This document shows positions 8,080 to 19,926 of a stretch of 23,287 nt of DNA, one piece after another (position 1 is the first letter of the stretch; each line of letters opens with the position of its first letter). A program made the position numbers and the translations under genes. The notes beneath the pieces were generated by a model, which saw only the letters and a program-made list of their open reading frames with translations, made no database searches and was not told the origin of the DNA. The stretch comes from a virus, in the IMG/VR virus record IMGVR_UViG_3300018420_000123, positions 1 to 23,287 of that record, one strand, 5' to 3'.

Positions 8080-8096
8080 CCTGACACTATGTCAGG
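8080..8096. repeat. 17-bp palindrome copy 1
   Basis: CCTGACACTATGTCAGG, 7-bp arms and 3-base centre. Its right arm overlaps the -35 region of the promoter at 8089-8117 and it abuts TTAGTAAAC. Confidence 0.85.
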
Positions 8097-8117
8097 ATTA
8101 GTAAACTTAAATATACT
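8089..8117 (+). promoter_or_regulatory. Probable promoter of the 249-aa gene
   Basis: ATGTCA (8089-8094), 17 bp, TATACT (8112-8117). The -35 lies in the right arm of the palindrome, and the spacer contains TTAGTAAAC (8098-8106) at nearly the same distance from the -10 as in the two strong promoters further right. A protein bound to the palindrome would cover the -35. Confidence 0.45.
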
Positions 8118-8219
8118 ATTCTTGGCTTTCATCTATCATTTAAGACATAATTACATCATGTCAGTGGTTATTACATTCTGTTCTAATCATGTTGGCATAA
8201 TTTAATTATGGAGTCAGTT

Positions 8220-8969
8220 ATGACACAATTAAATAAAGTGGTCTTAGCGTCACTAAAAACTAATGCTAAGAATTGGACGCTAGCAGAGCAATCAGCTAGC
8301 GAGTTAGCAACCACAATGGCTTGTGATATTGAGCCATTCATTGACGCTAAGCTTAAAGCTAAACGCACTAAGCACGGCAAGCTTCTCGCAGAGTATCGCG
8401 ATGAGGTGGACAGCGTCATTGATAACGTGCCTGAAATCACTGAAAGCCTAAAAGGTGGTGTGATTGACGGCGTGCTTGAGGGTAAGTCATACAAGGACTT
8501 TGCTCTTGAGGTTTACGATAACGGCGTTGAATACCTAGCCGTTGATACTGCCAAGGTTAGCCTAGGCGATAGGTTTGATAGCAAGGCTGTCAAGTCATTC
8601 TCAATGGGTTATATCTTAGCCCAAGACTTTGGCAAGCTTGACTTGACCGAGAACAAAGAGGGCGTGAACAATAACCCTCTTGGCTCACATGGTCCGAGTT
8701 TCAAGGCACTTGCCAAGGCTGACCAAGTCAAGTGTAAGAACACTATCGACAAGGCTTGGTCAAGGCTCAAGGGCAGAATGGCTAAAGCACTAGCCACCAT
8801 GTTCGGTGAAATCAAGCTTGATGTTGATGTGCTTGAGAAAGCCACCAAGCGAAGTGTTGACTACTTCAAGTCTATGCAATCCTTGACTAAGGATATGTCA
8901 GCTAAGGATAGCAAAGCAGTCATGGCTTGGCTGACTGATATCGAGAAGTCTTATCCTCTCGGTAAGTAA
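8220..8969 (+). CDS. Unrecognised 249-aa protein, monocistronic
   Basis: I do not recognise the family. The protein (MTQLNKVVLASLKTNAKNWT...) is helical and rich in K, A and D, with no membrane segment or cysteine pairs. There is a flexible GVNNNPLGSHGPS linker at about 147-159, and a basic C-terminal helical part (AWSRLKGRMAKALATMFGE) that could bind nucleic acid. ATG at 8220 is chosen because GGAG (8210-8213) is 6 bases upstream; ATG at 8208 has no ribosome site. Base use differs from its neighbours: 29 of 60 bases at 8701-8760 are G or C, and Lys is AAG about twice as often as AAA. It has its own probable promoter and a strong terminator, so it is a separate unit and possibly recently acquired. 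Confidence 0.85.
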   Translation: MTQLNKVVLASLKTNAKNWTLAEQSASELATTMACDIEPFIDAKLKAKRTKHGKLLAEYRDEVDSVIDNVPEITESLKGGVIDGVLEGKSYKDFALEVYDNGVEYLAVDTAKVSLGDRFDSKAVKSFSMGYILAQDFGKLDLTENKEGVNNNPLGSHGPSFKALAKADQVKCKNTIDKAWSRLKGRMAKALATMFGEIKLDVDVLEKATKRSVDYFKSMQSLTKDMSAKDSKAVMAWLTDIEKSYPLGK

Positions 8970-8977
8970 CACCCCGT

Positions 8978-9010
8978 CCCTCACGGCTCACGCCGTGGGG
9001 GATTTTTTTT
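8978..9010 (+). terminator. Strong rho-independent terminator after the 249-aa gene
   Basis: A 10-bp stem (8978-8987 with 8992-9001, one T-G wobble) with loop TCAC is followed by A and eight T residues. It starts 8 bases after the stop codon at 8967-8969 and ends this transcription unit. Confidence 0.93.
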
Positions 9011-9076
9011 GCCTTGAATATCTGTATTGTATCATAGATACCAGTTCCCCACGCGAGCACGCGAGCGAGATTTCAC

Positions 9077-9093
9077 CCTGACACCCTGTCAGG
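9077..9093. repeat. 17-bp palindrome copy 2
   Basis: CCTGACACCCTGTCAGG, perfect 7-bp arms, centre CCC. It lies in the non-coding region rather than next to a start codon. Confidence 0.85.
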
Positions 9094-9107
9094 TTCGTAG
9101 TCTGTGA

Positions 9108-9124
9108 GCTAAGATAGTTCTAGC
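9108..9124. repeat. Degenerate GCTAAGA palindrome
   Basis: GCTAAGATAGTTCTAGC has the same 7-3-7 layout as the perfect copy at 9742-9758 but with two mismatched pairs. It could be a weak operator or coincidence. Confidence 0.3.
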
Positions 9125-9205
9125 TGATACAAATCACAGTCGCTGCGACAAAGTGAAACCAGTTCTGACCGCGAGGGCGTGGACGTGTCGTCTAATTAAG
9201 TCATA

Positions 9206-9222
9206 CCTGACACCCTGTCAGG
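9206..9222. repeat. 17-bp palindrome copy 3
   Basis: CCTGACACCCTGTCAGG, identical to copy 2, located just before the first GGAACA-type box. Confidence 0.85.
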
Positions 9223-9226
9223 GTCG

Positions 9227-9703
9227 TGTTCCACGCTGTTTGACCTTGTTCCAATTTAGTCAACGTAGTTGGAACATGATTTTACTTTGTAAATCAAGTG
9301 GTTAGGTCACTTTGTTCCAATGTTCCAACGATTTTAGACATGATATGTGGGTTTGTAAACTTTGTGAAAGAAAGAGTCCCTTTTTTGCAGTGCAACATAA
9401 TTTACTAAACCCCCACCGTCCTACAAAACCACTGGAACATTGGAACAAAACACTAACTATACTAATACTATATAATATAATATATAATAAAAACAATAAC
9501 TTAGCCTTTTGCAAATTCTCTTGTTCCGTTCTTTTAGTAAACTTAGACCCCCCTCGACACTGGAACATTGTTATAAATCAAGCACTTACCTCGAAAAACA
9601 GCGTTATTAGTAAACTATTTTGGAACAAGAAATACCCCGTTGGAACAAAACCTACCCCGTGTTCCATTAGTAAACCGACGTTGGAACAAGACCTTTTGGA
9701 ACA
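9227..9703. repeat. Array of 14 GGAACA/TGTTCC boxes
   Basis: TGTTCC occurs at 9227, 9247, 9313, 9321, 9522 and 9660. GGAACA occurs at 9271, 9434, 9442, 9562, 9622, 9642, 9683 and 9698. Most extend to TTGGAACA or TGTTCCAA. Two sites are tandem 8-bp repeats (9313-9328 and about 9433-9447). Several neighbours are about 20 bp apart, close to two helical turns. The boxes flank an AT-rich core near 9461-9500. This looks like a multi-site protein-binding array such as an iteron origin, partition site or large operator. Confidence 0.75.
9534..9675 (+). repeat. Cluster of three TTAGTAAAC boxes
   Basis: Exact copies lie at 9534-9542, 9607-9615 and 9667-9675, each within about 20 bases of a GGAACA-type box. 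The same 9-mer lies in the spacers of the promoters at 8089, 9840 and 10591. A degenerate inverted copy is near 9400-9408. Confidence 0.6.
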
Positions 9704-9741
9704 AAATTAGCCTCGCTTTGCATCTCGCATAAACCCTATCA

Positions 9742-9758
9742 GCTAAGAATATCTTAGC
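9742..9758. repeat. GCTAAGA palindrome
   Basis: GCTAAGAATATCTTAGC has perfect 7-bp arms and a 3-base centre, the same geometry as the CCTGACA family but another sequence. It lies at the right border of the GGAACA array and may bind a different regulator. Confidence 0.5.
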
Positions 9759-9839
9759 GGAAACCATACTCATACTAGAAGCGGTGTCCTGAATTTGAAA
9801 ATACAACAATAATCTCTACCTCATAAATCGCTATATCAC

Positions 9840-9868
9840 TTGATTTATTAGTAAACTTATGGTATAAT
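9840..9868 (+). promoter_or_regulatory. Strong sigma-70 promoter P1
   Basis: TTGATT (9840-9845), 17 bp, perfect TATAAT (9863-9868). The spacer holds TTAGTAAAC (9848-9856). From -35 to the start of -10 it is identical to promoter P2 at 10591. The predicted start is near 9875. It drives the small genes beginning at 9884 and 9993. Confidence 0.85.
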
Positions 9869-9883
9869 TATATATAATGAGAG

Positions 9884-9976
9884 ATGAAACTATATCTGTC
9901 TGTTTTTGTGTTTTTAAGTGTGTTAGTTCCGTTTCTCGTTTTCAGTCCTGACATAGTGTCAGGTTTCATTAATTAG
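9884..9976 (+). CDS. Possible small hydrophobic leader peptide or membrane protein (30 aa)
   Basis: A frame starts about 9 bases after the predicted P1 transcript start, with GAG just before the ATG. The peptide begins MKLYLSVFVFLSVLVPFLVF and ends with a part encoded by the palindrome (SPDIVSGFIN). It would span the membrane once. It ends 16 bases before the next start, within reach of coupled translation. The ribosome site is poor and the length short, so it may be a chance frame. Confidence 0.33.
   Translation: MKLYLSVFVFLSVLVPFLVFSPDIVSGFIN
9947..9963. repeat. 17-bp palindrome copy 4
   Basis: CCTGACATAGTGTCAGG with perfect 7-bp arms, preceded by AGT and followed by TTTCATTAATTA and the ribosome site of the gene at 9993. 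Confidence 0.85.
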
Positions 9977-9992
9977 TTTGAGGAGACATATC

Positions 9993-10169
9993 ATGTATGT
10001 AGATACAAACGATCAAGACAAAGCTAGACGTTTCAGACAAAATTGGCTTTGGAAAGTGCAGTTTCAACGCGAGGCAAGAGGTAAGATGGTACTTTGCTTT
10101 GCGGTTGGTTTTGGCATTGGCTTTGCATGTTGCACCATGTTAGTTGCCATGCTTGAGAGGGTATCGTAA
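9993..10169 (+). CDS. Small membrane protein (58 aa)
   Basis: A basic, soluble N-terminal half (MYVDTNDQDKARRFRQNWLW) is followed by one hydrophobic segment at about residues 32-54 (MVLCFAVGFGIGFACCTMLV), so it should be a single-pass inner-membrane protein with a cytoplasmic, positively charged N-terminus. GAGGAG lies 7 bases before the ATG. An in-frame TTG at 9978 lacks a site. Its stop overlaps the next start (TAATG). Function unknown. Confidence 0.75.
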   Translation: MYVDTNDQDKARRFRQNWLWKVQFQREARGKMVLCFAVGFGIGFACCTMLVAMLERVS

Positions 10170-10369
10170 TGGCTACATGTTCAGAGTGTGGTGAAAGCTA
10201 TGCAGATGAACGCAAAGCTATTGGTTATGATACTTGTTTATCATGTGGAGATGATAGGGCTAACCTAGTTAAGCACACAGTTGCACCTATGCACAAAAGT
10301 AACTATTTGGTTATCACTAATCTCACTGACCTTAAAGGTCTAAACAATAAAGGGGGTCGTTATGGCTAG
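10169..10369 (+). CDS. Small zinc-ribbon protein (66 aa)
   Basis: Two CxxC pairs, CSEC at residues 4-7 and CLSC at 23-26, with glycine after each (CSECGESY, CLSCGDD), form a probable zinc ribbon of the kind used for nucleic-acid or protein contact. The tail is polar and ends NNKGGRYG. It is coupled by TAATG to the membrane-protein gene and overlaps the next gene by 8 bases. Its specific role is unknown. Confidence 0.75.
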   Translation: MATCSECGESYADERKAIGYDTCLSCGDDRANLVKHTVAPMHKSNYLVITNLTDLKGLNNKGGRYG

Positions 10370-10550
10370 AACATTTAAAGACATACCCATACCTAGAAAT
10401 GTTTATGAAGATGAAGAAAGAATTAGAAAGGGACGGGGTGTCTCTGAGGAGTCCGACATTGAACCTGTGTTTGATTTGGAACAAGAGTTGGACGAGTTAT
10501 TAACTAAAGTTCAGCGATTTGCTGAGAAAGGGGGTCGAGACGATAGATAA
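10362..10550 (+). CDS. Small acidic protein (62 aa)
   Basis: The protein (MARTFKDIPIPRNVYEDEER...) is charged, with an acidic helical C-terminal half (DLEQELDELLTKVQRFAEKG). There are no cysteines or membrane segments. GGGGG lies about 7 bases before the ATG, inside the previous gene. It is the last gene of the P1 unit, before promoter P2. I do not recognise the family. Confidence 0.7.
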   Translation: MARTFKDIPIPRNVYEDEERIRKGRGVSEESDIEPVFDLEQELDELLTKVQRFAEKGGRDDR

Positions 10551-10590
10551 ATTTTACGGAGAATAATGGTGTCATATTATTATATATCTA

Positions 10591-10619
10591 TTGATTTATT
10601 AGTAAACTTATGGTATACT
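10591..10619 (+). promoter_or_regulatory. Strong sigma-70 promoter P2
   Basis: TTGATT (10591-10596), 17 bp, TATACT (10614-10619), spacer with TTAGTAAAC (10599-10607). The -35, spacer and first four bases of the -10 equal P1. The predicted start is near 10626, about 200 bases before the gene at 10831; that leader holds two palindrome copies. Confidence 0.82.
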
Positions 10620-10650
10620 ATATGTATATGATGAAAGATTATCATTATTC

Positions 10651-10770
10651 ATGTCATTTTTACTTTACGAGCCTGACACTATGTCAGGGCTGAAACTTAG
10701 TGAATCCAACAGACCATACGAAGATGAGTATAAGTATGCGAGGGTATCTAGTGAAATTATCTGTTACTGA
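10651..10770 (+). CDS. Doubtful small ORF (39 aa) in the P2 leader
   Basis: A frame begins MSFLLYEPDTMSGLKLSESN and ends SSEIICY. The palindrome at 10672-10688 encodes PDTMSG, read in the same phase as the palindrome inside the gene at 15688. No ribosome site precedes either ATG (10651 or 10681). It may be a translated leader peptide, a remnant of an older gene, or chance. Confidence 0.2.
   Translation: MSFLLYEPDTMSGLKLSESNRPYEDEYKYARVSSEIICY
10672..10688. repeat. 17-bp palindrome copy 5
   Basis: CCTGACACTATGTCAGG in the P2 leader, about 50 bases after the predicted transcript start. Confidence 0.85.
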
Positions 10771-10789
10771 ACTAGAACTTAATCTCAGT

Positions 10790-10806
10790 CCTGACCTAGT
10801 GTCAGG
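10790..10806. repeat. 17-bp palindrome copy 6
   Basis: CCTGACCTAGTGTCAGG has one mismatched pair next to the centre. It is preceded by AGT and followed by TTCACTTTATTTGGAG, the ribosome site of the next gene. Confidence 0.8.
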
Positions 10807-10830
10807 TTCACTTTATTTGGAGAAGTTATT

Positions 10831-11790
10831 ATGTATGCAGAAACAATGGAAGTAAGTAATACAAGTAATACAAGTAATACAAGCACGGAACTTCAAACAC
10901 CAAACCATTTGACATCGTTGGCTACATCAGCAGTTTTAGTAACAGTTGACGTCAATGTTTGGTCAGCTACAAAACAAGACCGAACCATATCAGGTGAGGT
11001 AACATCAAGCAAGAAAGCAGACCCGAACGCGGGTAGGTTTGTTAAGAATCTTTTGGCAAACAACGTCCATCACAAGGACTTAGTGAACTATCGTCAGACT
11101 ATATATAATTGGGTGAAAGCCAAAACATATCGCTGGAATAATTCGCAAGACCTTTTACCAACCATAGAATTAGAATCATTTAAGCAAGAGTATGATAAGC
11201 ACGAGAAAGAGTTTAATCGCCTGCTATCTGAGTTTTGTGATAAGTATGATTCTATTAAATCAAACATGGCATTTGCACAAGGTGACATGTATAACATACA
11301 AGACTATCCGAGCGTTGAGGAAGTAAGACGTAAGTTTGGGTGTAAGTTATACATATCCGAAGTGCCATCACACGACTTTCGTTGTTCAGTTGCACAAGAC
11401 TTAGCTGACGACTTGAAAGTTAATTATCAACGACAATGCGAGGAGATTGTTAAAAATGTTTTACATCAACAAACAGATAGAATCGTCAATGTCATGGAAA
11501 GTATCTCACACTGTTGCGGAACACAAGAGATTACTACCAAAGAGGGCGAAGTTAAATCAAAGAAACGAAAGATATATGATACAACCATCGAAAAGGCGAA
11601 AGAACTATGCAGAACGATAGGTGCGTTTAAGTATGTCAATGACGAACATAGTCAACGATTACGCTCAGTTGCGAAACAATTAGATGATACCTTGTCAGGT
11701 GTATCTAGCGAGGCTTTGCGTGAGAGTGACTATACGAGAGATAGAGTTAAATCTGATATTGATAACATTCTATCTAAATTTGCAATCTAG
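10831..11790 (+). CDS. DUF3150-like protein, partner of the AAA/VWA pair
   Basis: The product has 319 aa. After a low-complexity N-terminus with SNTSNTSNTS, residues about 27-50 (LTSLATSAVLVTVDVNVWSA) resemble the start of DUF3150 proteins, which in phages and mobile elements are often encoded beside a CobS/MoxR-type ATPase and a VWA protein. This family call is from memory and moderate. The rest is long and helical, with YDKHEKEFNRLLSEFCDKYD and a C-terminal helix. No catalytic motif is seen. GGAG lies about 10 bases before the ATG. It is the first gene of the four-gene block driven by P2. A substrate adaptor for the ATPase is a reasonable but untested idea. Confidence 0.7.
   Translation: MYAETMEVSNTSNTSNTSTELQTPNHLTSLATSAVLVTVDVNVWSATKQDRTISGEVTSSKKADPNAGRFVKNLLANNVHHKDLVNYRQTIYNWVKAKTYRWNNSQDLLPTIELESFKQEYDKHEKEFNRLLSEFCDKYDSIKSNMAFAQGDMYNIQDYPSVEEVRRKFGCKLYISEVPSHDFRCSVAQDLADDLKVNYQRQCEEIVKNVLHQQTDRIVNVMESISHCCGTQEITTKEGEVKSKKRKIYDTTIEKAKELCRTIGAFKYVNDEHSQRLRSVAKQLDDTLSGVSSEALRESDYTRDRVKSDIDNILSKFAI
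10855..10881 (+). repeat. Tandem 9-bp repeat in a coding region
   Basis: AGTAATACA occurs three times in a row and encodes the SNT repeats near the N-terminus of the DUF3150-like protein. The copy number could vary by slippage without a frameshift. Confidence 0.8.
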
Positions 11791-11791
11791 T

Positions 11792-11808
11792 CCTGACACT
11801 ATGTCAGG
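11792..11808. repeat. 17-bp palindrome copy 7
   Basis: CCTGACACTATGTCAGG two bases after a TAG stop, followed by TTCATTTATTTA and AGGAGATATATC before the ATPase gene. Confidence 0.88.
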
Positions 11809-11838
11809 TTCATTTATTTATATCTTAGGAGATATATC

Positions 11839-12906
11839 ATGCACATAAATACACAGCGTGTAACAATTAAAGAGTTAGTAAGATTAATTCCAACCATCGG
11901 TGAAAGTCTAACACCTATCATTCAGTCAGAACCTGGGTGTGGCAAGACCTCACTACTTAAAATGCTAGAAGAAGACATGGGTGATAAGTATGACTACATC
12001 TATGTTGATTGTCCTGTGAAAGACATGCAAGACATCGCTATGACTATACCGAACCATGATACCCGCACACTCGAAACCTATGTTGGTTCATTGTTCAAAC
12101 TAGATTCACCAAAACCAAAAGTAATATTGCTTGACGAGTTTATGAAAGCACCGAAACTACTTCAGGTTATATTCACAAGGCTAATGCTAGAGAGATTCGT
12201 AGGTGATACACCATTACCACAAGGCAGTATCGTCTTTGGTACATCAAACAACCAATCGGACGGAGTGGGTGACACCATGTTAGCACACGCAAGTAATCGT
12301 GTTTGTATTCTTAACATGGCAAAACCTAGCGTTGAAGATTGGTTAGTATGGGCAAGTGAGAACGCAATCAGTCCATTGATTAGAGCGTGGGTTCACATGT
12401 TTCCTCGTTGTCTTAATAGTTACTTAGATGATAGTCAAGACGACAACCCATACATATTCAAACCGAGCAAACCACAGTTGAGTTTTGTTTCCCCTCGATC
12501 GTTGGCAAAGTCATCTGTCATCGTGGAGAACCGAGACACACTAGGAGAGGTAGCCACAATGTGTGCATTGTCAGGCACTATCGGTCACAGTGCGAGTGCA
12601 GACATGAGTGCGTTCTTGAATCTTGAAAAGTCATTACCATCACTAGATAGTATCTTATCTCAACCTGATACTGCGAAGATACCGAACGAGATATCAGCAC
12701 AGTTGATGGTCATGTTTCAAGCAACAGATAAGATTAAAACACAGGACGAGTTGACATCGTTTATGAAGTATATCAAGCGTATTAATTCATCTGAGATTCA
12801 AGCAATATTCTTTACTATGCTTGTGCGTAACAAGAACACAAGACATTTGGCTAGGGGTAATCAGGACGTAGCAACATGGGCGACTGATAACTACGAATTA
12901 TTCTAA
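11839..12906 (+). CDS. MoxR/CobS-like AAA+ ATPase
   Basis: The product has 355 aa. Walker A is EPGCGKTS at residues 31-38, Walker B is VILLDEF at 95-101, the sensor-1 region is GTSNNQ at 134-139 and an arginine-finger-like SNRV is at 152-155. These place it among MoxR/CobS-type AAA+ proteins, which act as rings remodelling a partner complex, typically with a VWA protein. The next gene encodes exactly such a partner. The C-terminal half is helical and family-specific. AGGAGATATATC lies before the ATG. Marine phages often carry a cobS-labelled ATPase of this kind. True cobaltochelatase activity is unlikely to be its role, since no cobalamin genes are seen here. Confidence 0.88.
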   Translation: MHINTQRVTIKELVRLIPTIGESLTPIIQSEPGCGKTSLLKMLEEDMGDKYDYIYVDCPVKDMQDIAMTIPNHDTRTLETYVGSLFKLDSPKPKVILLDEFMKAPKLLQVIFTRLMLERFVGDTPLPQGSIVFGTSNNQSDGVGDTMLAHASNRVCILNMAKPSVEDWLVWASENAISPLIRAWVHMFPRCLNSYLDDSQDDNPYIFKPSKPQLSFVSPRSLAKSSVIVENRDTLGEVATMCALSGTIGHSASADMSAFLNLEKSLPSLDSILSQPDTAKIPNEISAQLMVMFQATDKIKTQDELTSFMKYIKRINSSEIQAIFFTMLVRNKNTRHLARGNQDVATWATDNYELF

Positions 12907-12913
12907 AATCAAC

Positions 12914-12930
12914 CCTGACACTATGTCAGG
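12914..12930. repeat. 17-bp palindrome copy 8
   Basis: CCTGACACTATGTCAGG between the ATPase and VWA genes, directly followed by TAGGAG, the VWA ribosome site. Confidence 0.88.
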
Positions 12931-12944
12931 TAGGAGAATAAATT

Positions 12945-14111
12945 ATGAATCAAGAAACAAGACTCAAGAAAGCACACATCGCTCTCATGCGTCACCCTGA
13001 GACCGCACTATACTCAGGCATTATGATGATGGGTGATAGCACTGTGGTAGATGATTGTCCTACCGCATACACTGATGGTGTGAATAAAAAGTATGGGCGT
13101 GCGTTCATGGAGAAGTTGGAAGATGATGAACTACGAGCATTGATACTACATGAGAACTTACATGTGGCATTGAAACATATCCAACGATTCAAGAAAGAGT
13201 GGGAGAAAGATCCCATGTTGGCAAATGCGTCAGCAGATTATGTTGTAAATGACATCATATGCAATCTGGAAGACACTAACTTTCTACGACTACCGAAAGG
13301 TGGACTGTATGACCCTAAGTATCATAATTGGTCGGTGCGAGAAGTCATGAATGATTTACGTCAGCAACAACAGAGTGGTCAACAACCACAAGGTAGCATG
13401 GACGAGCATGACTTTGAATCAGGCGAGATGGGTGAGGGTGGTCAACCAATGACAGCCAAAGAGCAACAGGAACTATCGAAACAGATTGATAAAGCGTTGC
13501 GTGAGGGTGGCATACTCGCAGGCAGATTAGGTGCAAACATACCTAGAAACATCACCGATTTGCTTGAACCTAAAATCGACTGGAAGACTGTCTTGCGTGA
13601 CTTTATTATGTCTCAGATGAAAGGCACAGATGAATATACATGGCGGAAGTATAACAAACGACTTGTTGCCAATGATATATACATGCCTAGCATGGAAGAT
13701 GAACGAGTGGGTGAGTTGACTATTGCGATAGATACATCAGGTTCTATCGGTGCGGACGAGTTGTCAGCGTTCGCGTCAGAACTGGTTTCCATATGTCAGA
13801 CCTCTACCCCTGAAAAAGTCCGAGTTATTTGGTGGGACATGTCCGTTCATGGTGAGCAAGTATTTGAAGAACATACATACAATGACATAGCAAGACTACT
13901 CAAACCGCAAGGTGGGGGTGGGACTGACCCTGAATGTATCATAGAACACATCAAGAAAGAGAATATTAATTCACAAGCAATCGTTGTGTTCACTGACGGA
14001 TACTTTGATACACCGAATTGGAATACATCTATACCTACATTGTTTGTTGCAACAGAGATAGAGAAATACATTCCAAGTAACTGTAAAGTAGTTAAACAAA
14101 ACCTATCCTGA
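12945..14111 (+). CDS. VWA protein with HExxH-type N-terminal domain
   Basis: The product has 388 aa. The N-terminal domain carries HENLH at residues 69-73, a metallopeptidase-like zinc motif as in DUF2201-type proteins. A glutamine- and glycine-rich linker follows at about 138-168. The C-terminal VWA domain has a complete metal site: DTSGS at 263-267, T327 in GGGTDP and D351 in FTDG. VWA proteins with MoxR-type ATPases form chaperone-like or chelatase-like machines. Here the ATPase gene is immediately upstream. TAGGAG precedes the start. The TGA stop at 14109-14111 lies inside the next palindrome. Whether the HExxH site cleaves protein is unknown. CobT-like is the nearest alternative label. 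Confidence 0.87.
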   Translation: MNQETRLKKAHIALMRHPETALYSGIMMMGDSTVVDDCPTAYTDGVNKKYGRAFMEKLEDDELRALILHENLHVALKHIQRFKKEWEKDPMLANASADYVVNDIICNLEDTNFLRLPKGGLYDPKYHNWSVREVMNDLRQQQQSGQQPQGSMDEHDFESGEMGEGGQPMTAKEQQELSKQIDKALREGGILAGRLGANIPRNITDLLEPKIDWKTVLRDFIMSQMKGTDEYTWRKYNKRLVANDIYMPSMEDERVGELTIAIDTSGSIGADELSAFASELVSICQTSTPEKVRVIWWDMSVHGEQVFEEHTYNDIARLLKPQGGGGTDPECIIEHIKKENINSQAIVVFTDGYFDTPNWNTSIPTLFVATEIEKYIPSNCKVVKQNLS

Positions 14112-14123
14112 CACTATGTCAGG
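14107..14123. repeat. 17-bp palindrome copy 9
   Basis: CCTGACACTATGTCAGG; its left arm supplies the TGA stop of the VWA gene. It is followed by TTCATTTATT and the ribosome site of the gene at 14147. Confidence 0.88.
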
Positions 14124-14133
14124 TTCATTTATT

Positions 14134-14146
14134 AAGGAGATATACC
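14134..14146 (+). promoter_or_regulatory. Very strong ribosome binding site
   Basis: AAGGAGATATACC directly before ATG matches the well-known phage T7 gene 10 translation signal. Related versions precede the genes at 9993 and 11839. It sets the start of the 298-aa gene and predicts high expression. Confidence 0.75.
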
Positions 14147-15043
14147 ATGTTTGAACATGTAACTTTTGACAAACTAAAAGATATAACTAAGAAAGTTAAA
14201 CCATACAGAGGAAGTAACAACCACTATCCTGTATTTCCGCATTACAGACATCAGTCGTATAAGAGATTCTTTGCTCATGGGAAACTGTATGACTTAGCTG
14301 ATAACAACAAAGAAGCATTTATCATTGAGTATCAAGGTCGACCATTGATTGTGGTCAATGAAGATAATGTAGTCGAGTTTCTACAAGATCATTACTATCA
14401 AGGTGACAGAATGTTTCTTACTCAATTATGTGATAACCCATCAGGATACTATCGTCAAGGGTGGTGGCACGAGGGACAGTTAGTGTGTAACGATGAGAGA
14501 CGAGGCGGTAACGTGTGGGTGAATGTGCTAGACGCAAAAGGTCATTATGCACAATTCAGACCGATACACCCTAAGATACGATACAACATGCTGACCAACG
14601 AACCACTTGTCGCTTATGACATTATTTCACCACGCGTGGACAGAACCAAGAACATAGATATTACTGACAAACTTAACAGTGTATTCAAGCAAGTCGAAAC
14701 ATTTTGGAGAGCGTCAGGTGATAAGTTTCACGAGTTGGTTCAAGAGTTGGCTAAAGAGGGTAAAGCAAAGTATGAAGACCACTCATGGCGAAACTCGTAT
14801 GAAACTATGTATAAAAGAGGTGAGATAGATTTGCTATCAGCCATAATATTAGATACGGAATATTCGTATTGGGTATGGCATGACGGCAAGAATGTAGAGG
14901 GGGCTATCAAAGGTGTTAAGCAGAAACTTAAAGAAATGATATGGGAGTGGGAACAAGCCTATAACGAGAGCATAACACCATGTGAGTTAGCTTATATACC
15001 AACAAATGACAGACTACAAATCAGATTGAGAGGTGAGAAATGA
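14147..15043 (+). CDS. Unrecognised 298-aa protein, fourth gene of the ATPase/VWA block
   Basis: I do not recognise the family. The protein is rich in aromatic residues, H and R in its first half (PYRGSNNHYPVFPHYRHQSY, YYRQGWWHEGQLVC). It has a helical second half (LNSVFKQVETFWRASGDKFH; GVKQKLKEMIWEWEQAYNES). There is no ATPase, nuclease or membrane signature. It follows the VWA gene after a palindrome and an unusually strong ribosome site, and its end overlaps the next gene (ATGA). Its shared control suggests it works with, or is a target of, the upstream ATPase/VWA pair. This is inference from context. Confidence 0.8.
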   Translation: MFEHVTFDKLKDITKKVKPYRGSNNHYPVFPHYRHQSYKRFFAHGKLYDLADNNKEAFIIEYQGRPLIVVNEDNVVEFLQDHYYQGDRMFLTQLCDNPSGYYRQGWWHEGQLVCNDERRGGNVWVNVLDAKGHYAQFRPIHPKIRYNMLTNEPLVAYDIISPRVDRTKNIDITDKLNSVFKQVETFWRASGDKFHELVQELAKEGKAKYEDHSWRNSYETMYKRGEIDLLSAIILDTEYSYWVWHDGKNVEGAIKGVKQKLKEMIWEWEQAYNESITPCELAYIPTNDRLQIRLRGEK

Positions 15044-15276
15044 GTATGCCAAGTAGAGAAGAAGAAAGACATAATTACTTTGTTAACGAACTGCGGTCAA
15101 GGTTCACCAATGTCGAGATATTAAAGCACTTTGCTGATTTAATGCGACAACGCATGAAAAAAGGTGATGAGGTTATGATAGATTGGGCTTTGGATTATAT
15201 GATTGAACACATTGACCCAAGTGACGCACTAGATGAAGTTGCTGACGCAATAGGATTTGAGGAGATAAATGTATGA
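15040..15276 (+). CDS. Small acidic helical protein (78 aa)
   Basis: The start overlaps the previous stop by four bases (ATGA) and the stop runs into the next ribosome site, so it sits in a coupled gene chain. The sequence MSMPSREEERHNYFVNELRS and the later DYMIEHIDPSDALDEVADAI form two or three helices with a strongly acidic C-terminus. No cysteine pairs or membrane segments. Function unknown. Confidence 0.75.
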   Translation: MSMPSREEERHNYFVNELRSRFTNVEILKHFADLMRQRMKKGDEVMIDWALDYMIEHIDPSDALDEVADAIGFEEINV

Positions 15277-15288
15277 AGGAGAATCGTG

Positions 15289-15525
15289 ATGTTAGTTAAA
15301 CATTTAATTAAAGAATTACAGAAAATGAACCCTGAACTACATGTTGAAGTTGATTTAACGAATGATACAGGTGAATCAATTAACCATGATTTTTCAGACT
15401 TTCCACTAACTACATATGTAGCACAAGATTTTCACGAAGTAGTCGAATGTGAAAATAATTATGGAAGTTGGGTTCGGCTATCTTTTAATAATTTTAGTAG
15501 AGTTAATTATGGAGATGAAGAATGA
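15289..15525 (+). CDS. Small phage protein (78 aa) beginning MLVKHLIKELQKM
   Basis: The N-terminus (LVKHLIKELQKMNPELHVEVDL) follows a pattern seen in many short phage proteins of unknown function, with a helix then a strand ending in alternating hydrophobics. ATG at 15289 is chosen over GTG at 15286 because AAGGAG (15276-15281) is 7 bases upstream. The tail is acidic and aromatic. Its stop overlaps the next start (ATGA). Confidence 0.75.
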   Translation: MLVKHLIKELQKMNPELHVEVDLTNDTGESINHDFSDFPLTTYVAQDFHEVVECENNYGSWVRLSFNNFSRVNYGDEE

Positions 15526-15701
15526 AAACGTATCGAGTTTATATCACGCAATACTGTGAACCAATAGTTGTTCGAGCGAAAGATGAAGATGACGCTAGAA
15601 ATAAAGCAACCGAAGACCACGTTTGGGAAGTAACAGACGTGGATTTTAGAATCGAAGATGATTCAGAACCAACGTGGGAGGAACAAAATGGGCTATCGTA
15701 G
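15522..15701 (+). CDS. Small phage protein (59 aa) beginning MKTYRVYITQYCE
   Basis: The short frame starts in an ATGA overlap with the preceding gene and ends inside the next one, so it fills what would otherwise be a 160-base gap. The sequence MKTYRVYITQYCEPIVVRAK followed by DEDDARNKATEDHVWEV has the strand-then-helix pattern of small phage proteins in which an Ala-rich helix follows a VxAxDxDxA motif. The tail is acidic. The layout makes it a confident gene despite its size. Function unknown. Confidence 0.75.
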   Translation: MKTYRVYITQYCEPIVVRAKDEDDARNKATEDHVWEVTDVDFRIEDDSEPTWEEQNGLS

Positions 15702-16131
15702 CGAAGTAGCAATAGGTATAAGAATGCAACCTGACACCACGTCAGGTCAGGATTACCTTGATAAGAAGAAACTTTGGAATACGTTTGTAGCAGAGTGTAA
15801 GACAAGACACCCTCTAGCTTTCGACAACAAAGACTTATGTTTTACTATCTTTAACGATAAAAGAATGATGGGTTTCACTCAGTATGAACTAAAGTGGTAC
15901 CCTGATTTTAAAGATGTTCAAGCGTTTATGGGAGTTATTGATATCGCTAAAGATTATAACGAGCAACACGAGTCAGAGTTGTTTGAAACCGCATACGTCA
16001 GAGTTGGAGAAGAATCTGACGATGTAGAAGTTGACTATACAGGTAGTGGGTGGGAGATGTTTCAACCATACTCAGGTATTGGCGGTGAGTTATATGATGA
16101 ACTTTATGAGGACAAGAAAAATGGACTATGA
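15688..16131 (+). CDS. MGYRSEV-type phage protein (147 aa) with embedded palindrome
   Basis: The N-terminus MGYRSEVAIGI is a recurrent opening of phage proteins of unknown function. ATG at 15688 is used because GGGAGG lies about 7 bases upstream; the longer frame from 15658 has no site and would not give this conserved start. Residues 14-21 (PDTTSGQD) are encoded by a 17-bp palindrome copy that appears inserted in frame. The rest mixes strands and helices, with FQPYSGIGGELYDELYEDKK at the C-terminus. It overlaps both neighbours. Confidence 0.82.
   Translation: MGYRSEVAIGIRMQPDTTSGQDYLDKKKLWNTFVAECKTRHPLAFDNKDLCFTIFNDKRMMGFTQYELKWYPDFKDVQAFMGVIDIAKDYNEQHESELFETAYVRVGEESDDVEVDYTGSGWEMFQPYSGIGGELYDELYEDKKNGL
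15730..15746. repeat. 17-bp palindrome copy 10, inside a gene
   Basis: CCTGACACCACGTCAGG, arms of 6 bp with a 5-base centre, followed by TCAGGA. It encodes PDTTSGQD in the 147-aa protein. Confidence 0.75.
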
Positions 16132-16285
16132 CATAAACGAAATCAAACTACCAATTACACTACGCACGGACAAAGATACAATCGTGCAATTCACATTAGA
16201 TAGTGGAGTGTTATCGGACGAGACATTATCTATGATATTCAAAGACATTGACAAAGAACTAGAGAGAAAGGGGTATGCGTCATGA
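16121..16285 (+). CDS. Small phage protein (54 aa)
   Basis: The start at 16121 overlaps the previous gene by 11 bases. GAGG lies about 7 bases upstream, and the frame before it is only a shadow of that gene. The protein (MDYDINEIKLPITLRTDKDT) starts with two strands and ends in a charged helix (DETLSMIFKDIDKELERKGY). Coupled to the next gene by ATGA. Function unknown. Confidence 0.7.
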   Translation: MDYDINEIKLPITLRTDKDTIVQFTLDSGVLSDETLSMIFKDIDKELERKGYAS

Positions 16286-16521
16286 GAGTGCAAGACGGAG
16301 TAAGTTATGGTGATATGTTCTTAGGTGTAGTTATGGGCATATTAATTGGGTGGGGGGTAACATATTTGTGGCAAGAATTAGAACCACTGATTAACCCACT
16401 ACCACCTGATTATGTATGTCAGAAAGGTATAGCTTTCCAAGCTACCGAGTATGGCAGTAATATTTATTTAAAAACAGGTCAAGCATGTATTGACACAACC
16501 TTTGGGGAGGAAATGAAATGA
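16282..16521 (+). CDS. Small membrane protein (79 aa)
   Basis: A hydrophobic segment at about residues 10-30 (GDMFLGVVMGILIGWGVTYL) is followed by a polar region with two cysteines (YVCQKGIAFQ and GQACIDTTF) that could form a disulfide on the outer side of the membrane. It starts and ends in ATGA overlaps. Size and topology would suit a phage membrane or lysis-associated protein, but no specific family is recognised. Confidence 0.75.
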   Translation: MRVQDGVSYGDMFLGVVMGILIGWGVTYLWQELEPLINPLPPDYVCQKGIAFQATEYGSNIYLKTGQACIDTTFGEEMK

Positions 16522-16703
16522 ACCAATGTGATAAATGTGGTGCAAGAGATAATCATGAAGATAAAAATAGTATGTTTTATGCGACTGATTTCTTTTGGCA
16601 CGGTGATATAAAAGAAGACTATGACATGGGTGATTACTCTTGTCTATGTAGAAAATGTTTTGATGAGGGTAATTATTGGATTAATAAAGGGGAAATGAAA
16701 TGA
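16518..16703 (+). CDS. Small zinc-binding protein (61 aa)
   Basis: CDKC at residues 4-7 and CLCRKC at about 43-48 give two cysteine pairs around an acidic, aromatic middle, fitting one zinc-binding knuckle fold. GGGGAGG precedes the start inside the previous gene, and both ends overlap neighbours by four bases. The C-terminal codons GEMK and their bases (GGGGAAATGAAATG) repeat at the end of neighbouring genes, so the overlaps share a common ribosome site sequence. Confidence 0.72.
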   Translation: MNQCDKCGARDNHEDKNSMFYATDFFWHGDIKEDYDMGDYSCLCRKCFDEGNYWINKGEMK

Positions 16704-16936
16704 TGTTTTTAGATTTAAAAAACGAAGATCATGCAAATGTGTTTAACAAGGTATGTTCAGGGGAAATAACCGAGTTACACCCATGCCCACATGGACATGA
16801 TTATGAGAGCCAACAAACTTGTTCTCATTATGAAGAACAAGACGAAAGTGACTTTGGTGAATGCTCTACATGGCTTGTTAGAAACACAAAATGTTACTGT
16901 GAACTACAACCTATAAATTTTTATGAGGGGAAATGA
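16700..16936 (+). CDS. Small cysteine/histidine-rich protein (78 aa)
   Basis: It contains C19, then CPHGHDYESQQTCSHYEEQD and CSTW, followed by CYC near the end. The seven Cys and four His residues suggest a metal site or disulfides. It is acidic with no membrane segment. It starts in an ATGA overlap, and its final codons contain the ribosome site GAGGGG for the next gene. Function unknown. Confidence 0.7.
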   Translation: MMFLDLKNEDHANVFNKVCSGEITELHPCPHGHDYESQQTCSHYEEQDESDFGECSTWLVRNTKCYCELQPINFYEGK

Positions 16937-16937
16937 A

Positions 16938-17945
16938 ATGAATGCACAGAAGTTTAATTACTTTAGAAATGATAGTATCACAATAGATTCAGGACTTGAG
17001 CCACTCATCGGTGAATTATGTCATAGGTATGACATGAAAGTTTTGAACAAAATTAATATCAGACAACAATGGGGAGGACAGTATTGGACATACACTGAGA
17101 CCTCTCGTGGAGGTAGTGAAAAATACTATGATGGTTATGTTTTAAGCAGAAGTGGTTTTCCTGAGATAGTAGCATGGACTGATGGTGAGACATACTACAT
17201 GTCGGCTGATACTCAATTAAAAGAAAGAAGTGATGGCAAGTTTCTCAATGCTAAAAGATTATCTGACTTGATGAAGAAGTTTGATAAGCGAGTTGACACA
17301 GGACGACATAATCCACATGACTTAAAACATTGGGTTACAGGCGGTCAATATGCAGACACAGTTGTTCAAGATGTTTCATCATCAAGTAAGTTGACAAGAT
17401 CATACTCAGACATATCAATGAATGGTGCTGAGTTACACCTATTGTTAGATAGTTTCATAAATCATGCAGATATGTCTTCATCACAAAGACAGTCATTTGA
17501 AATTAAACTACAAGACTTAGACAACAAATATAATGCAGTGCAGAACGCTAGTAATATTGTTAGAGAAAAACTAGAGAAACCTTTTTATGTTGTAGGTAAA
17601 TCTCTGATGTCACACTCTGATGAATCATGTGTTGTATGGAAAGCTAAGATAGAAAATAATCAATTTATTTTAGTTGAAACACCAAAAGCATACAGACGAT
17701 TTGAAGACTGTCCTGTTCACGACAAGCTAAGACCCATTACAACAATGTTTGCTATCGCTCATGAGGATAAATCTAGAGAATATAACAGAAGCACAAAATG
17801 GTTACTAGATAAAGTTATACCACAAACAGAACATTACAGTCAGACCCATACGTTTGACGCTGACACAGGTGTTGGATACTTTGACTATATGAGATGTCAC
17901 AACGATTTCAAAATGGTATATACTTATATACTAGATGTCGATTAA
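16938..17945 (+). CDS. Unrecognised 335-aa phage protein
   Basis: I do not recognise the family. ATG at 16938 is chosen since GAGGGG (16925-16930) is 7 bases upstream, while ATG at 16923 has none. The first 120 residues are rich in Y, W and G (QQWGGQYWTYTETSRGGSEK). A helical middle follows (NHADMSSSQRQSFEIKLQDL). The C-terminal part (FDADTGVGYFDYMRCHNDFK) is mixed. No ATPase, nuclease or membrane motif is seen. Its size stands out among the tiny neighbours. It overlaps the next gene by 11 bases. Confidence 0.8.
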   Translation: MNAQKFNYFRNDSITIDSGLEPLIGELCHRYDMKVLNKINIRQQWGGQYWTYTETSRGGSEKYYDGYVLSRSGFPEIVAWTDGETYYMSADTQLKERSDGKFLNAKRLSDLMKKFDKRVDTGRHNPHDLKHWVTGGQYADTVVQDVSSSSKLTRSYSDISMNGAELHLLLDSFINHADMSSSQRQSFEIKLQDLDNKYNAVQNASNIVREKLEKPFYVVGKSLMSHSDESCVVWKAKIENNQFILVETPKAYRRFEDCPVHDKLRPITTMFAIAHEDKSREYNRSTKWLLDKVIPQTEHYSQTHTFDADTGVGYFDYMRCHNDFKMVYTYILDVD

Positions 17946-18318
17946 ATTAGAACCTATACCCCACTTTGTGATGACGGACTATATCCGTGTCCCTGTCAAA
18001 AGAGACGGAGAGAACTTTATCGTTTACTTAGAGAAGAACTATGTTAGACGATACACTCTCTCCACTCTCCCTGATTTTATATCATCTAAGATTACCATAG
18101 CTAATGTATTAACAAACGAAATAAAACAAGACCACGAACTACAACACTACGATATTTTTATTTGTGATTCGGATAACGGAGACCCTGACATTGGGTGGCG
18201 GGCAAGTGAATCTATTTATGTCGTCATCTTACATTTAAAAGAGTATGCTAAGTTATTAGGAAAAACAAATGACTCCCGAAAAGAAAATAAAAGAGAAAGT
18301 AAAAAAGATACTGACTAA
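17935..18318 (+). CDS. Unrecognised 127-aa phage protein
   Basis: It opens MSIKLEPIPHFVMTDYIRVP, then alternates strands and short helices up to about residue 105. The C-terminus is highly charged (NDSRKENKRESKKDTD). There are no metal or membrane motifs. Its last 50 bases overlap the VRR-NUC gene in another frame, so the basic tail may partly be a by-product of that overlap. Function unknown. Confidence 0.7.
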   Translation: MSIKLEPIPHFVMTDYIRVPVKRDGENFIVYLEKNYVRRYTLSTLPDFISSKITIANVLTNEIKQDHELQHYDIFICDSDNGDPDIGWRASESIYVVILHLKEYAKLLGKTNDSRKENKRESKKDTD

Positions 18319-18577
18319 ACTTAACTGCTATTACTGTATGCCCGCAACGGGAGGTTATGGTGCTAGTGGTGTTCCTGATATTCTAGCTTGTCATCAAGGC
18401 ATGTTCATAGGTATAGAAACCAAAGCCAACGGCAACAAACCCACTGCACTCCAACAGAAACATCTAAGAGATATTAGTATCTCAGGTGGTAAATCTTTAG
18501 TTATTGACGAAACGAATATAGATATGCTAGAGTTTTATATCAAGGGTAAGAGAATATACAATATAGATGAAAAATAG
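18269..18577 (+). CDS. VRR-NUC domain nuclease
   Basis: The product has 102 aa, the size of a stand-alone VRR-NUC domain. The nuclease core shows E4, GVPDIL with D37, GIETK with E50 and K52, and LQQKHL with Q62, followed by GGKSLVI. This is the PD-(D/E)XK arrangement of phage VRR-NUC proteins, which cleave DNA junctions or flaps in this superfamily. A role in replication or recombination intermediates would suit its place before the polymerase. The start is deep inside the preceding gene. Confidence 0.88.
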   Translation: MTPEKKIKEKVKKILTKLNCYYCMPATGGYGASGVPDILACHQGMFIGIETKANGNKPTALQQKHLRDISISGGKSLVIDETNIDMLEFYIKGKRIYNIDEK

Positions 18578-18824
18578 AAAAACCAACCTGACATCAGGTC
18601 AGGACGATAAAGTAAATCACCCATCACATTACACTCAAGGTAAGGTCGAGTGTATTGACGCCATCGAGTCAGCAACCACTAATCTTATCGGTATCGTAGC
18701 CGTGTGTGTAGCCAACGTCATTAAGTATGTGTGGCGATTCGCATTGAAGAATGGTATTGAAGATTTAGACAAAGCTGATTTTTATTTACAAAAATTACGC
18801 AAGAAAGTGAGAAAAAAACAATGA
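18567..18824 (+). CDS. DUF3310 protein with embedded palindrome
   Basis: The product has 85 aa. The core VNHPSHYTQGKVECIDAIES, the later NVIKYVWRFALKNG and EDLDKADFYLQKL form the DUF3310 pattern found in many phages; phage T7 gp1.7, a nucleotide kinase, belongs to this group, so a nucleotide-related role is possible but not shown. The family normally begins close to VNHPSHY. The extra N-terminal residues NLTSGQDD are encoded by a copy of the 17-bp palindrome. The start overlaps the nuclease gene by 11 bases, with no good ribosome site. Confidence 0.88.
   Translation: MKNRKTNLTSGQDDKVNHPSHYTQGKVECIDAIESATTNLIGIVAVCVANVIKYVWRFALKNGIEDLDKADFYLQKLRKKVRKKQ
18587..18603. repeat. 17-bp palindrome copy 11, inside a gene
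   Basis: CCTGACATCAGGTCAGG, arms of 6 bp with a 5-base centre, in the 5' end of the DUF3310 gene. It shares the TSGQD-coding part with copy 10. Confidence 0.75.
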
Positions 18825-19308: not shown

Positions 19309-19554
19309 ATGGGTAACAAATATACACAAGACCAATACAATGAGTTTTTAGAAAGAGCCATACGGTTCATGAAAGAAAACCCAAACGCCTCAAGAGCAAA
19401 GGTAGCTCTCTATGCCGGTGTAGGCGTTGCTGTATTGGAAAGATTTGAAAAAGAGGGTAAACTAAAACTTCCTCCAGTTATGACAAGTAAACAAGCAAGG
19501 GCAAGAAATAATTGGGCAACAACATTAGGACAATTAAGTGGCAGACGAGGCTGA
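19309..19554 (+). CDS. Probable helix-turn-helix protein (81 aa)
   Basis: Residues about 26-55 (NASRAKVALYAGVGVAVLER then FEKEGKLKLPP) have the spacing of a helix-turn-helix in which ASRAKVALYAGV is helix-turn and VAVLERFEKEG is the recognition helix. The C-terminus is basic (SKQARARNNWATTLGQLSGR). AAGGAAA lies 5-8 bases before the start. DNA binding is inferred. It is a candidate ligand for one of the repeated palindromes, though nothing links them directly. Confidence 0.7.
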   Translation: MGNKYTQDQYNEFLERAIRFMKENPNASRAKVALYAGVGVAVLERFEKEGKLKLPPVMTSKQARARNNWATTLGQLSGRRG

Positions 19555-19738
19555 TTTAGCAAATGATGAGGCGCAACGACAATTAGACGTTACACTAAGA
19601 TCAATCAAAACAGATGTTCCCACTAATGATACGCATAAGTGTATTTGGTGTGGCGAATCTATTAAACAAGATGATGGACGTCGTTGGTGCTCAGTTGAAT
19701 GCCGTAACGAACATGAATTATATGCAAATAAACTATGA
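19538..19738 (+). CDS. TraR/DksA-like RNA polymerase regulator
   Basis: The product has 66 aa with a GTG start. From this start it begins MADEADLAND, which aligns without gaps to F-plasmid TraR (MSDEADEAYS), including D6 and A8, the tip residues that enter the RNA polymerase secondary channel. A single helix follows to about residue 25. A four-cysteine zinc finger comes next, C35, C38, C51, C55 (CIWCGESIKQDDGRRWCSVEC). TraR is 73 aa with the same plan, although its last pair is CxxC. TraR-type proteins alter host promoter choice without ppGpp. It overlaps the upstream gene by 17 bases and the next by four. Confidence 0.8.
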   Translation: MADEADLANDEAQRQLDVTLRSIKTDVPTNDTHKCIWCGESIKQDDGRRWCSVECRNEHELYANKL

Positions 19739-19926
19739 CAACCAAATCACCATGCAAAAACTATTGTCGATACGAACAATTCGAGGGCGAACAAGTGTGC
19801 GAAGCTTGTGGAAGAACATATGATGATCTTGACGTTTGGCTTACTGCCTCCGATTCTACCAAAAAAGATATTAAAAAACACGCAAGAGAAAGACTTAAAA
19901 GGCTCAAACATGCTAAAAGTAGGTAA
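19735..19926 (+). CDS. DUF1289 protein (63 aa)
   Basis: SPCKNYCRYE at residues 5-14 and VCEACGRTYDDLDVWL at 21-36 match the DUF1289 pattern SPCxxxC...CxxCgRTxxEixxW, with four cysteines (C7, C11, C22, C25) probably binding zinc. A basic helix follows (KKDIKKHARERLKRLKHAKS). It starts in an ATGA overlap with the TraR-like gene. Family function is not established. The adjacency of two small zinc proteins may point to joint transcription control. Confidence 0.82.
   Translation: MTTKSPCKNYCRYEQFEGEQVCEACGRTYDDLDVWLTASDSTKKDIKKHARERLKRLKHAKSR

Follow-up and report, generated by a model that had tools for sequence, protein, structure and literature searches.

The 23.3-kb IMG/VR virus record IMGVR_UViG_3300018420_000123 (23,287 nt, read as a marine phage; this whole stretch is called the window below) contains a dispersed array of a 17-bp palindrome, CCTGACA-NNN-TGTCAGG, whose first copies flank a hypervariable gene at 8220-8969. 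We found that related phages carry different palindromes at orthologous positions and that the flanked gene changes together with the palindrome. With moderate confidence, we favour the explanation that the palindromes are dispersed duplex-DNA binding sites of a dimeric phage protein; this protein, most likely encoded by the flanked gene, would damp transcription of the early arm in a stoperator-like manner. The linked hypervariable gene and the wholesale replacement of the motif across relatives go beyond the original prediction, which had described the repeated palindrome in the window.

All eleven copies listed in that prediction were found, from 8080 to 18603 in the rightward arm only, and the leftward head genes had none. 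The prediction had named an equal density in shuffled sequence as a refuting outcome; when up to three mismatches were allowed, there were 12 matches compared with 0.70 expected, a number reached by none of 100 dinucleotide shuffles. The arms are conserved as claimed, with perfect 7-bp arms in eight of the 11 copies and one change, in the innermost pair every time, in the copies at 10790, 15730, and 18587. The centre varies less than had been claimed, as CTA and TAG are one site seen from opposite strands. The described placement at gene junctions applied to nine copies and was not strictly intergenic, as the copy at 14107 takes in the VWA stop codon; the remaining two (15730 and 18587) are each located close to the 5ʹ end of an open reading frame (ORF). 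For five copies, a start codon follows 14–30 nt past the end of the palindrome. The array and the flanked gene are arranged as follows, with the palindromes given without strand:

8080-8096: palindrome copy 1, CCTGACACTATGTCAGG, ahead of the flanked gene and immediately followed by a promoter-like TTAGTAAAC...TATACT stretch; relatives fill the slot of this copy with class-specific palindromes.
8220-8969, plus strand: hypervariable flanked gene, 249 aa from the ATG at 8220 or 253 aa from the ATG at 8208, bracketed by copy 1 and copies 2/3.
9077-9093: palindrome copy 2, centre CCC, following the flanked gene.
9206-9222: palindrome copy 3, centre CCC, 129 bp past copy 2.
9947-9963: palindrome copy 4, centre TAG (the copy 1 type reversed), 30 bp ahead of the ATG at 9993.
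10672-10688: palindrome copy 5, centre CTA.
10790-10806: palindrome copy 6, with one arm change (CCTGACC), ahead of a 319-aa gene.
11792-11808: palindrome copy 7, at the junction of the 319-aa gene with an ATPase gene.
12914-12930: palindrome copy 8, separating the ATPase gene from the VWA gene.
14107-14123: palindrome copy 9, overlapping the VWA stop codon.
15730-15746: palindrome copy 10, CCTGACACCACGTCAGG, within the 5ʹ part of the ORF at 15658-16131.
18587-18603: palindrome copy 11, CCTGACATCAGGTCAGG, close to the start of the DUF3310 ORF at 18567-18824.

A pair resembling copies 2 and 3, 126–146 bp apart, is also present in six related records (G001, G002, L126, L130, L132, and L135).

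Loci of relatives were gathered by motif pattern and, independently of the palindrome, by ATPase and terminase proteins, and all inverted repeats were counted at each locus with no preset sequence. Every lineage had its own repeated palindrome, giving about 25 classes of 14–20 bp. Written as the arm and spacer that precede the reverse complement, the classes included CCTGACA-N3, CCTGTCA-N3, CGTGGGA-N2, CCTAGAA-N2, TCCGTGA-N2, CGTGACA-N2, CGTTACA-N2, and TTCGACA-N2, as well as TGTAGTGA-N2, TGTATCG-N4, TCGTCGT-N6, TTCCCGT-N6, AAGCGT-N8, ACGCGA-N4, ATCGGGA-N2, and TTCACG-N4. Some half-sites are one base apart (CGTGACA/CGTTACA and CCTGACA/CCTGTCA). Shuffled genomes had 2–3 copies at most of any repeat with 6-bp arms, and the arrays in long records spanned one stretch of 5–10 kb. 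The copies are near identical inside one genome and unrelated from genome to genome, which points to recognition by a factor acting in trans.

Of the viral contigs with a single exact match to CCTGACA-N3-TGTCAGG (L007-L124), most had no resemblance to the window by tblastx, and their matches are probably due to chance.

The palindromes are exchanged at fixed positions. At the junction of the 319-aa and ATPase genes, the window has CCTGACACTATGTCAGG, while L132, L134, and L138 have CCTAGAATATTCTAGG, CGTGGGAATTCCCACA, and TCCGTGATATCACGGA, respectively, each located after the stop codon of the upstream gene and before the ribosome-binding site. Similarly, palindromes of four classes (TGTATCGCATACGATACA, TCGTCGTAAGCTCACGACGA, TGTAGTGAACTCACTACA, or TTCCCGTAAGCAAACGGGAA) start at nt 74–77 of a gene named c4 in five phages, where they encode NVSHTIH, FVVSSRR, IVVNSLQ (two phages), or VPVSKRE; the adjoining residues, like the remainder of the protein, are conserved. 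In four phages, class palindromes also share one place in the VWA linker, where the frame in which the palindrome is read varies. A peptide or frame that changes beside conserved residues indicates selection on the palindrome and not on the peptide, with both arms altered jointly. The original prediction had proposed looking in relatives for covariation of the arms and for copies at the same junctions, and both were seen: the two arms are replaced jointly from class to class, and the slots are kept and filled with class-specific palindromes.

We then considered which gene follows the palindrome. In the relatives, the first copies bracket an ORF of 190–260 aa adjoining the leftward head genes. 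When close relatives were compared over 27 kb, the flanked gene was the only gene of conserved position that was common to same-motif phages and absent or unrecognisable in different-motif ones, and exclusion across whole records picked the same gene. The flanked proteins of G006, G007, and G010 (TGTAGTGA class) were 59–84% identical, and those of G005 (TCGTCGT) and G009 (TTCCCGT) had no match at the threshold of that screen, while most other conserved genes among these close relatives were about 60–99% identical. In a pair test of 34 phages from 19 motif classes, with homology defined as E ≤ 1e-3, the flanked proteins were homologous in 24 of 28 same-motif pairs versus 49 of 533 different-motif pairs, counts that are not independent since the genomes are related. 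When the identity of the terminase (TerL) was at least 90%, the proportions were 13/13 and 10/58, respectively, and different-motif phages mostly had no recognisable flanked homology even at 94–100% terminase identity. The identity of the flanked proteins was correlated with the similarity of the half-sites (Mantel r 0.57; partial 0.57 given TerL and 0.44 given MoxR), and none of 2000 permutations reached r. As the copies are scattered over 5–10 kb among conserved genes, exchange of gene and sites as a single block is not an easy explanation.

Two other candidates for the specificity factor were ruled out. The helix-turn-helix (HTH) protein of cluster c47 is near identical in G005 and G006, whose motifs differ, and the HTH-like ORF at 19309-19554 is missing from several palindrome-bearing genomes. 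Cluster c47 itself (19428-19739 in G001, and homologues) is a conserved HTH protein of 103 aa, encoded close to the replication genes and also present in G012, which has no array.

In the mechanism that we propose, the flanked protein would be made early as a dimeric DNA-binding regulator and would bind the sites upstream and downstream of its own gene, resulting in autoregulation. It would also occupy about eight other sites, located at junctions between genes of the early/replication arm, where the bound sites would damp transcription as an operator and roadblock array, like stoperators. Protein and sites would shift specificity jointly, giving each phage lineage a separate code. The structure model of the window protein (pLDDT 87, pTM 0.73) is mostly helical, with a long helix at about 155–197 that is net positive in 13 of 13 aligned sequences, while the AlphaFold model of the TGTAGTGA-class flanked protein reached a pLDDT of only 41.

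Several results weigh against this explanation. The flanked protein had no significant match in Pfam (including HTH families), PHROG, phage isolates, or bacterial genomes, and a fold search with the window protein gave no significant PDB or viral-model match (the best hit, VIA, had a Z of 5.8 across 50 helical residues); the proposed binder thus has no recognisable DNA-binding domain or fold match. Profile comparisons of independent sets gave 47% (A7-A8), 2% (A9-A10), and 0.3% (A7-A9), which is weak or nil support for one superfamily, and the flanked proteins may not all be homologous. In L155, the palindrome is of the CCTGACA class, yet the flanked protein is not recognisably related to that of the window and is closer to the CCTGTCA-class proteins. 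Three long relatives (L328, L344, and L345) had no array of at least three copies. The relatedness of the genomes, mentioned with the pair counts, belongs here as well. Finally, most sites are away from predicted promoters, so the suggested role in transcription rests on analogy.

This last point bears on an alternative that we regard as doubtful, in which the flanked protein binds the DNA sites for a non-transcriptional purpose, such as control of replication or packaging, nucleoid organisation, partition, or marking of self-DNA against co-infecting phages. Besides the distance of most copies from promoter-like sites, about a quarter of the copies (18/70 in eight genomes) lie inside coding sequence, no integrase was found in ten related records, which makes a classic lysogenic repressor unlikely, and the fast diversification at 94–100% terminase identity suggests competition. 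However, the copies prefer junctions just ahead of ribosome-binding sites and are confined to one transcribed arm. For partition in particular, no ParB_N domain was detected in ten relatives, with the control detected in 10 of 14 genomes; these records are possibly incomplete, and centromeres can also be bound by proteins of other folds.

The original prediction had offered three roles, namely an operator, an RNA hairpin, and a spreading element, of which the operator, in the sense of a DNA site bound by a dimer, has the most support and the other two are disfavoured. A role as RNA hairpins of 5ʹ leaders that are processed, or that an RNA-binding protein of the phage recognises as N does boxB, to control translation or stability, is unlikely. 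Every class consensus can fold into a hairpin (−4.9 to −9.4 kcal/mol), and the five window copies shortly ahead of start codons would suit such a role. However, the stability is not conserved between classes, Rfam gave no match, and several copies lie within coding sequence or past the last gene. Furthermore, 232 copies had 73 single arm changes, of which 62 were pair-breaking and 11 gave G.U, and A.C mismatches (29) exceeded G.U (11), the opposite of what selection for RNA pairing would predict; these counts come from related sequences and are indicative. The centre is used in both orientations, with CTA 14 and TAG 5, CCC 5 and GGG 3, and CCA 3 and TGG 4 in the genomes of the CCTGACA class, and in classes with even spacers the dyad often extends through the centre, that is, into the loop. 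Because the arm changes do not favour G.U and the centre is found in either orientation, a dimer-binding DNA site appears to fit better than an RNA hairpin.

It is very unlikely that a host transcription factor binds the sites, with the differences between phages mirroring differences between hosts. Searches of bacterial genomes with the terminase and the flanked protein found no relatives and hence no host for these uncultivated phages, which gives this explanation some room; however, G005 and G006 have unrelated palindromes with 97% identical terminases and 94% identical ATPases, and it is a phage gene that tracks the switch. Intrinsic terminators or attenuators are highly improbable: window copies were flagged as terminator-like for their T-rich tails, but these tails are interrupted and form no true U-run, the tails of other classes are A-rich or mixed, the stems are 6–8 bp, and copies lie upstream of or inside genes. 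A spreading element of the REPIN/MITE type mobilised by an enzyme encoded by the flanked gene is barely credible, for although copies bracket that gene and others are dispersed, orthologous positions are kept in phages whose palindromes differ entirely, which is not expected from insertion, and no transposase family matched.

The closest precedent for the binding-site array is that of the Cluster O mycobacteriophages (Corndog), which have a 17-bp palindrome, TGTTCGG-NNN-CCGAACA, in 34 copies genome-wide, with one sequence for all five phages and with binder and function unknown (PMC4351075). The two arrays share the 7-3-7 dyad, invariant arms, a centre whose orientation is not meaningful, and many copies that are intergenic with some in coding sequence; dimer binding was proposed there. 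In contrast, the array described here is limited to one arm, its sequence differs from relative to relative at positions that are orthologous, and a single gene changes with it. The Cluster O sequence was absent among the classes that we found. The stoperators of Cluster A (L5 and Bxb1) are asymmetric, oriented with transcription, and bound by an HTH immunity repressor (PMC6550527, PMC9283540). They resemble the present sites in being many, short, and dispersed, with few at promoters and a consensus that varies with the cognate protein, which we assume here to be the flanked gene product. They differ in that our sites are symmetric with centres in both orientations, no domain was recognised in the protein, and no integrase was found in relatives. 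The start-associated sequences of Cluster K mycobacteriophages (SAS/ESAS; PMC3203893) are also short repeats close to translation starts, with inverted repeats in some (ESAS); as described in PMC4351075, SAS are tied to start codons, whereas several sites here are inside genes or distant from starts. As in the heteroimmune phages lambda and 434, cited in PMC6550527 as homologous circuits, repressor and operators would shift specificity jointly, but the operators there are at one or two control regions and here about ten sites are spread across 10 kb. We found no description of this palindrome-swapping system in open papers (subscription journals were outside the search). The present case is a variant of dispersed palindrome arrays in which the binder has a candidate and the relatives supply a natural set of specificities.

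The relatives thus form a natural experiment in which palindromes were exchanged at fixed positions and one gene was exchanged alongside. A candidate binder can now be named for a dispersed phage palindrome array, a kind previously described with neither binder nor function (Cluster O). About 25 natural protein–site specificities in one phage group would also provide data on the co-evolution of regulator and operator when ten sites must shift jointly. The finding also points to a protein family that has no known relatives and to potentially useful orthogonal DNA-binding pairs. The array and the matching variable gene look like a fast-changing lock-and-key of phage protein and DNA addresses. 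Tentatively, we suggest that lytic marine phages may use a code for self-recognition, in which the roughly ten address sites of each genome and a hypervariable DNA-binding protein whose fold is unknown co-diversify under co-infection competition. If so, each phage would be able to regulate its own genome, or keep others out, with no cross-talk.

As for the gene layout of the window, the head genes run leftward, and the rightward arm holds an SprT-like gene, the flanked gene, small genes, the 319-aa gene, and genes for a MoxR-like ATPase, a DUF2201/VWA protein, a DUF3310 protein, and a family A DNA polymerase. Three of these adjoin several palindrome copies:

10831-11790, plus strand: 319-aa gene, cluster c0, present in all palindrome-bearing genomes having this region.
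11839-12906, plus strand: MoxR-like AAA ATPase gene (phrog_1297), by family match.
12945-14111, plus strand: DUF2201/VWA-like metallopeptidase gene, by family match; in relatives, its linker region holds an in-frame class-specific palindrome.

Together these genes (10831-14111) form a conserved block within this uncultivated phage group. The 319-aa protein had no match among isolated phages, and the nearest isolates by terminase (HTVC027P, DSL-LC04, 023Pt_psg01, and HTVC023P, about 48–52% identity) were without the block in the protein clusters used here; neither a multi-copy palindrome array of their own nor the flanked protein was found in them.

The start of the DUF3310 ORF (18567-18824) takes in palindrome copy 11, adding LTSGQ ahead of the conserved start of the family. 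TTAGTAAAC occurs six times in the window at 8098-10607, on the plus strand only (0.32 expected), with two occurrences within TTTATTAGTAAACTTATGGTATA(A/C)T and one immediately past palindrome copy 1, and it looks like a repeated promoter element. Another repeat, TTGGAACA, has nine copies on both strands at 9247-9703, a 460-bp and mostly non-coding region (10 in the whole window versus 1.2 expected); these repeats are iteron-like, and a replication origin may be located there.

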